Shown: positions 541 to 808 of the stretch, piece by piece
How positions within the stretch are numbered: the first letter of the stretch is position 1
Layout: each line of letters opens with the position of its first letter
From: a virus
Length of the DNA: 21,940 bases
Virus record (IMG/VR): IMGVR_UViG_3300010148_003001
Span: 1-21,940 of that record
Direction: 5' to 3' (one strand)
Notes under the pieces: generated by a model
What the model was told of the DNA's origin: nothing
What the model saw: only the letters and a program-made list of their open reading frames with translations
Databases searched by the model: none
Program-made: the position numbers and the translations under genes

Positions 541-772
541 GTTTTAGATACACGCCGCCCCTTATAGGAGCGCTTTACTGTGCGTTCGTTGGTTATGCCT
601 CTTGCAAATATCGCTAACTTCCCTGACATTGGAGTATCGGTGTTCCCGTCCCTACACCACTCTGTTTGTCCTGGGGCATCGCTAGACCCCCAGTAGGAGT
701 AACCCTGCAGGTTTTGATCTTTTTGTAGTGACCTGGCTACCTGCTCCGTTACTGTGCGGTTACATTTGCCGT
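541..772 (-). ncRNA. Candidate structured noncoding RNA, leftward, about 230 nt
   Basis: The block is about 49% G+C by hand count, against roughly 27% in 181-240. On the leftward transcript it forms consecutive stem-loops. SL1 (753-698): AGUAAC and GCAGGU pair with ACCUGC and GUUACU around a 3x3 internal loop. Inside it, GGUC (733-730) can pair with GAUC (719-716). SL2 (693-671): CUGGGG with CCCCAG. SL3 (670-625): nested GACA/UGUC, GAGU/ACUC and GGUGU/ACACC. SL4 (585-552): ACGC/GCGU enclosing CGCUCC-UAUAA-GGGGCG. Two pairs are G-U on this strand but A-C mismatches on the other, which favours leftward RNA. A promoter at 808-779 predicts a start at 772. I match it to no known RNA family. It could also be a leader, or DNA-level signals such as a packaging site. 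The 3' end is uncertain. An 84-codon open frame without a usable start also crosses it. Confidence 0.5.
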
Positions 773-794
773 AAAAAAATTATATACTCATAAT
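766..794 (+). promoter_or_regulatory. Rightward promoter for the packaging/late operon
   Basis: TTGCCG (766-771) and CATAAT (789-794) are separated by 17 nt and match the sigma70 consensus at 4 of 6 and 5 of 6 positions. Transcription would start near 801, giving a leader of only about 16 nt that is mostly ribosome binding site. It overlaps the leftward promoter, so both cannot be occupied at once. No phage-type RNA polymerase promoter was recognised. Confidence 0.4.
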
Positions 795-808
795 AAATTA
801 TGCGTCAA
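779..808 (-). promoter_or_regulatory. Leftward promoter for the structured RNA block
   Basis: On the minus strand TTGACG (808-803) and a perfect TATAAT (784-779) are separated by 18 nt. Predicted start is an A at 772, right where the run of folded stems begins. The -35 box shares bases 807-808 with the ribosome binding site of the small terminase gene, and the spacer overlaps the rightward -10 box (789-794). It is among the best sigma70-like matches I found in the window. Confidence 0.55.

Follow-up and report, generated by a model that had tools for sequence, protein, structure and literature searches.

The marine bacterial virus contig IMGVR_UViG_3300010148_003001, a 21,940-base IMG/VR record analysed along its whole length and referred to here as the window, almost certainly encodes a structured RNA on the minus strand of positions 600-772, as judged from covariation among related phages. 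On the sequence comparisons made here, this RNA is a new family within a broad and already known kind, that of structured phage RNAs whose function is unknown. It lies in non-coding DNA between a small leftward gene and terS, which together with terL heads the rightward late arm (Table 1). The initial annotation, made from the letters of the window, had proposed an undescribed structured RNA read leftward from the block 541-772, and this central claim is borne out. The block is indeed richer in G+C than positions 163-360 (0.51 and 0.28, respectively, with 0.37 for the whole window). The major capsid protein of the virus shares approximately 30% identity with pelagiphage counterparts such as that of HTVC026P. 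A search of a phage collection for a close isolate and a search of GTDB genomes for TerL relatives, which could have given a clue to the host, both returned none.

Relatives were collected by TerL and TerS scans of IMG/VR, in which the block proved to be conserved upstream of terS. Fourteen further phage contigs have the RNA in this position, as does one distant relative, L016, whose copy was recovered by a profile built without it (E 4e-18). An alignment of 15 distinct copies (A2) was folded with RNAalifold into a consensus of 51 pairs, and the resulting model (R1) matches the window core at 181 bits. Double compensatory changes occur in 24 of the 51 pairs. Of the alignment cells at consensus pairs, 96.1% pair, in comparison to 32-44% when partners are slid by one to three columns, and double-change cells number 81 against 4-15 in the same slid controls; the observed score was reached by none of 500 shuffles. 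Counted by parsimony on a tree, compensatory changes occurred 21 times along branches and involved 19 pairs, with 0-1 events for slid structures and a mean of 0.74 (maximum 4) for 300 random re-partnerings. As the tree was built from the same short alignment, the number of events is approximate, and it is the contrast with the controls that matters. The count of further pair types did not exceed that of shuffles, as is to be expected where a measure reflects the composition of the columns. This comparative support comes from about seven lineages, all belonging to one phage group. The copies differ by one- and two-nucleotide indels and have no ORF in common, indicating that the segment is non-coding.

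Folding energy gives a different picture. An energy beyond that of shuffled controls had been anticipated for the block, and it was not found: the z-score for 541-772 is -1.15 leftward, with 25 of 200 shuffles as good, and -0.79 rightward, while that of the core ranges from -0.25 to -2.6 over the 15 members. Single-sequence folding energy, significant on neither strand, was therefore rejected as proof of an RNA, and the existence of the RNA is accepted because of covariation rather than energy.

Table 1. Features of the RNA locus and its surroundings (window positions; -, leftward).
Feature	Position	Strand	Pairing, details and basis
Structured RNA core, P1-closed domain, ~173 nt	600-772	-	Alignment, consensus fold, pair and tree counts
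P1, 5' strand	762-769	-	769-765 with 604-608, 763-762 with 610-611; foot at predicted start
P1, 3' strand	604-611	-	Consensus fold, column-pair scan
P1, inner part (CGC with GCG)	756-758 with 612-614	-	Consensus fold
P2 hairpin (SL1)	698-753	-	753-748/698-703, 3x3 internal loop, 744-739/707-712, apical 733-730/716-719
P3	697-695 with 621-623	-	Encloses P4 and P5
P4 hairpin (SL2)	671-693	-	693-685/671-680
P5 hairpin (SL3)	625-670	-	670-668/625-627, 663-660/631-634, 658-654/639-643
3' extension	542-599	-	Less conserved; ~60-nt insertion in near kin of the window
Variable 3' hairpin (SL4), possible	573-567/561-556	-	Sequence conserved, pairing not
Leftward sigma70-type promoter	779-808	-	-35 TTGACG 808-803, 18-nt spacer, -10 TATAAT 784-779
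Small leftward gene	start ~161	-	Flanks the non-coding DNA on the left
terS	817-1386	rightward	Named from position and synteny, without family match
terL	1388-2875	rightward	Terminase large subunit (PHROGs, Pfam)

Of four stem-loops described initially, SL1 to SL3 are retained in the consensus as P2, P4 and P5. SL1 has two stems of 6 bp around the symmetrical 3x3 internal loop, and SL3 follows SL2 directly, both as first described. SL4 (CGCUCC/GGGGCG) was rejected as a conserved stem, since its pairing is found only in the nearest kin and changes between lineages, with the sequence conserved instead. The inventory was also incomplete, having missed P1 and P3, both with good covariation. P1 is a long-range helix in which the first bases of the RNA pair with bases approximately 160 nt further on; five of seven pairs show double changes, whereas its inner pairs are invariant except in L016 and, being without covariation, are weaker. 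The upper stem of P2 carries five compensatory events. P3, P4 and P5 form a three-way junction, with pair variants CC/GG, UU/AA and UG/CA in P3 and GUC/GAU versus GGA/UCC in P4. In the window sequence, the outermost pair of P5 (663/631) is A-C. A scan of all column pairs that makes no use of energies ranked P2, P5, P3, P1 and P4 highest, along with one spurious helix in the U-run of the promoter. The most conserved segments are CGCACAGUA, AAGUU and the G-rich loop of P5, which reads GGGNCGGGA in most members; AAGUUAGCGA, which like CGCACAGUA is a joining segment, is conserved as well.

The consensus pairs also reveal the strand. Read leftward they include 56 G-U and 11 A-C combinations, in comparison to 26 and 24 when read rightward, extending to the whole fold an asymmetry first noticed in two pairs and identifying the leftward strand as the one that folds. 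The TATAAT promoter placed at the 5' edge by the initial annotation is found there, with 11 of 12 consensus matches and a predicted start at ~772, 3 nt before the first base of P1. The pattern TTGACN-16/18-TATAAT/TACAAT/TATACT/TACACT occurs in 12 of the 15 copies and is weaker in L088/L091 and L016, and the distance from the -10 element to CGCACAG is 18-21 nt across copies. By its sequence, a leftward promoter can be recognised in every member and is clear in most. In most members it is overlapped by a weaker promoter-like pair that reads rightward, GTTACA-16/18-TATACT/TATAAT, located at 759-788 of the window. The two divergent promoter-like sequences (759-788 versus 784-808), one directed toward the RNA and one toward terS, share a GTATAC-type -10 element. 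The overlapping rightward pair may explain the conservation of the partly unpaired UGUAAC, the complement of GTTACA.

This overlap, together with flanking repeats that look operator-like, would accommodate an explanation in which the conserved object is an antisense RNA or a DNA-level site (an operator, pac or cos) on the terS side, with the RNA fold as a by-product. Such an explanation is improbable, given that strand-asymmetric tolerance of G-U pairs and compensatory changes require a folded leftward RNA, and that the candidate rightward start would lie to the right of the RNA gene, so that the RNA would not be antisense to terS mRNA.

Beyond the core, the 3' extension is variable to ~542 except for UAUAAGGGGCGG (566-555) and UCUAAA. 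Across members the conserved sequence reads UAUAAGGGGYGG, and pairing is not kept. The UAAGGGGYGG part resembles a Shine-Dalgarno sequence, and a GUG- or CUG-started ORF following it was considered and rejected, as the frame is not open in relatives. A longer RNA of ~500 nt was likewise rejected, as the downstream block TTTCAACGCTCTG...ATCGG is present in sister phages that lack the RNA and is thus a separate element. Within the extension, positions 586-576 of the window repeat the 5' motif CGCACAGUAA, which is also found at 757-748; the versions in close kin are degenerate.

As a discrete module, the RNA is optional, occurring in one clade and in L016. In six sister contigs (L132-L137; TerL 73% identical), terS, a leftward operon headed by the same gene family and the flanking block TTTCAACGCTCTGACTAC...ATCGG are all retained, and the RNA is missing from the junction; this retention of junction and operon without the RNA marks it as a discrete module. 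A further group (L017-L029; TerL 75% identical, three on contigs of 29-36 kb) is also without it. Model R1 found only L016 as a distant homologue among 30 related records and other loci, and nothing beyond L016 among 33 IMG/VR loci picked out with a degenerate pattern. At their junction, ~900 to 510 bases upstream of terL, L132-L137 have a near-perfect palindromic hairpin (GGCA..TTTTACACCCCCCTAAAGGGGGTGTATAAAAGTGCC), the arms of which differ compensatorily by subgroup (ACACCCC/GGGGTGT versus AAACCCC/GGGGTTT). In L016, a gene named by eye from its sequence as SSB-like (~925-1270) is situated between the RNA and terS.

No known family accounts for the RNA. Rfam 15 covariance models, run at gathering and permissive thresholds over the window and five relatives, gave no family match to it, and the one sub-threshold match among the five relatives lies outside the RNA; neither a tRNA nor a tmRNA was found in the window. 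These results agree with the initial reading by eye, which recognised no known RNA in the block. Searches of a set of open-access papers yielded no description of the RNA, which is weak evidence that none exists. No test made here places the RNA with put, pRNA, GOLLD, ROOL, 6S or tmRNA. Like 6S RNA, tmRNA and RNase P RNA, which are stand-alone RNAs, it has ends that pair, but it matches none of them at either threshold and differs in architecture. GOLLD and ROOL are phage or metagenome RNAs of unknown function that, as here, were first defined by covariation (PMC12286853). Unlike the present RNA they are far larger (GOLLD often >800 nt) and often occur near tRNA islands, whereas the window is without tRNA.

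The position of the RNA next to terS in the window and its near kin, and its multi-helix junction in a tailed phage, recall the pRNA of phi29-type phages, a part of the packaging motor that would be retained with the ATPase, and could suggest such a role in DNA packaging for an RNA whose gene neighbours terS and terL. This is very improbable: the RNA is absent from phages with 73-75% identical TerL, a conventional TerS is present, the Rfam library that gave no match includes the pRNA family, transcription is directed away from terS, and in L016 the two are separated by the SSB-like gene.

In three near-complete relatives of 36-37 kb (G001-G003), the RNA marks the point from which the early arm runs leftward and the structural arm rightward. 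The early-arm genes of the near-complete relatives include a DnaC-like loader and a Holliday junction resolvase. On the minus strand of one contig (L110, corresponding to G002), positions 427-2028 encode a 533-aa GHKL-ATPase-like early-arm protein matching Pfam HATPase_c_3 above cut-off. In G001, slightly different versions of one early gene family (MASKDIHPEDLGEF...) occur near both contig ends; the family is either duplicated or lies on a circular genome whose assembly contains overlapping variants. Between the RNA and the first leftward gene lie 350-700 nt of variable sequence, in which a second sigma70-like promoter sequence is located closer to the gene, at 249-221 by scan in the window and by eye in G001-G003. 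A scan for intrinsic terminators 3' of the RNA found none, so that its 3' end is putative and transcription may run on into the early operon.

The intergenic region downstream of the RNA also carries repeated DNA. Two direct copies of TAG-N7-AGCGTTGAA, 79% identical and 129 nt apart, lie at 354-372 and 483-502 of the window; this operator-like DNA element is kept in one copy in the sister phages without the RNA as well. The AT-rich stretch at 376-411 contains an exact repeat of TGCGGTAGGTTTAA with a spacing of 22 nt. The short direct repeats of the region differ between genomes, an example being TAGGGGAGTGA present twice in tandem in L106, and they are possibly iterons of an origin. In ColE1, the transcript RNA II primes or activates an origin, and the leftward transcript could conceivably do so for an origin in the adjacent AT-rich, repeat-bearing region. 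Each of the three near-complete genomes has its minimum of cumulative GC skew 700-830 nt downstream of the RNA, and the phages encode the DnaC-like helicase loader. However, the skew minimum also coincides with the switch in gene direction and therefore proves nothing, and the same junction exists in sister phages without the RNA, leaving a replication-linked role doubtful, if slightly less so than a DNA-level or antisense function.

The best rival to a stand-alone RNA is an antiterminator acting in cis. The put RNA of phage HK022 suppresses termination and pausing in cis, independently of any protein. By analogy, the RNA described here could form the leader at the 5' end of the early leftward transcript, modifying its own polymerase by put-like antitermination or anti-pausing, or controlling the operon. 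HK022 put is ~70 nt in length with two stem-loops and is expressed from a sigma70 early promoter, and the fold of putL begins at A3, a short way downstream of PL (PMC9378689). The RNA is similarly predicted to fold from the first transcribed bases of a strong sigma70-type promoter, starting at +1 and heading the early arm, and no terminator was found before the operon. In promoter position it thus fits put, while in size and architecture it does not: with ~175 nt, the long-range P1, P2 and the P3-P4-P5 three-way junction, its fold is larger than put and unlike it. The variable sequence before the first gene, the second promoter-like sequence nearer to that gene, and the sister clade, in which a similar operon headed by the same gene family runs although the RNA is missing, all speak against a cis leader, which is consequently unlikely, albeit the most credible of the alternatives.

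A stand-alone, trans-acting, protein-binding RNA is modestly favoured, as judged from sequence, given the 5' end that closes P1, the ability of sister phages to run the operon without it, and the absence of an evident pairing target: in four genomes inspected by eye, no exact 8-mer complements of the conserved loops were evident at the starts of shared genes. Under this stand-alone reading, host RNA polymerase would produce an independent RNA early in infection, transcribing leftward from ~772 at the RNA's own host-type sigma70 promoter. P1 would close the molecule through its 5'-most transcribed bases, holding within it the P2 hairpin and P3, which carries P4 and P5. The RNA would then bind a host or phage protein in trans, rather than act by simple antisense pairing, presenting to it the joining segments CGCACAGUA and AAGUUAGCGA and the G-rich loop of P5. 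More speculatively, and with less probability than the cis leader, the RNA could represent a new class, an early stand-alone phage RNA that binds and redirects a host machine such as RNA polymerase, with divergent and overlapping promoters that share a palindromic GTATAC -10 element serving as the switch between it and the late operon.

To our knowledge, covariation supports the folds of few phage RNAs, and fewer still are found in the region of the early/late switch. The RNA described here lies where the leftward early arm meets the late (terS) arm, which runs rightward. With a consensus model, about seven lineages, a predicted start and a sister clade that naturally lacks the RNA, its presence, 5' end, structure and effect are directly testable. 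Furthermore, its restriction to uncultured marine phages without a close isolate shows that RNA families of ocean viruses are still missing from catalogues.
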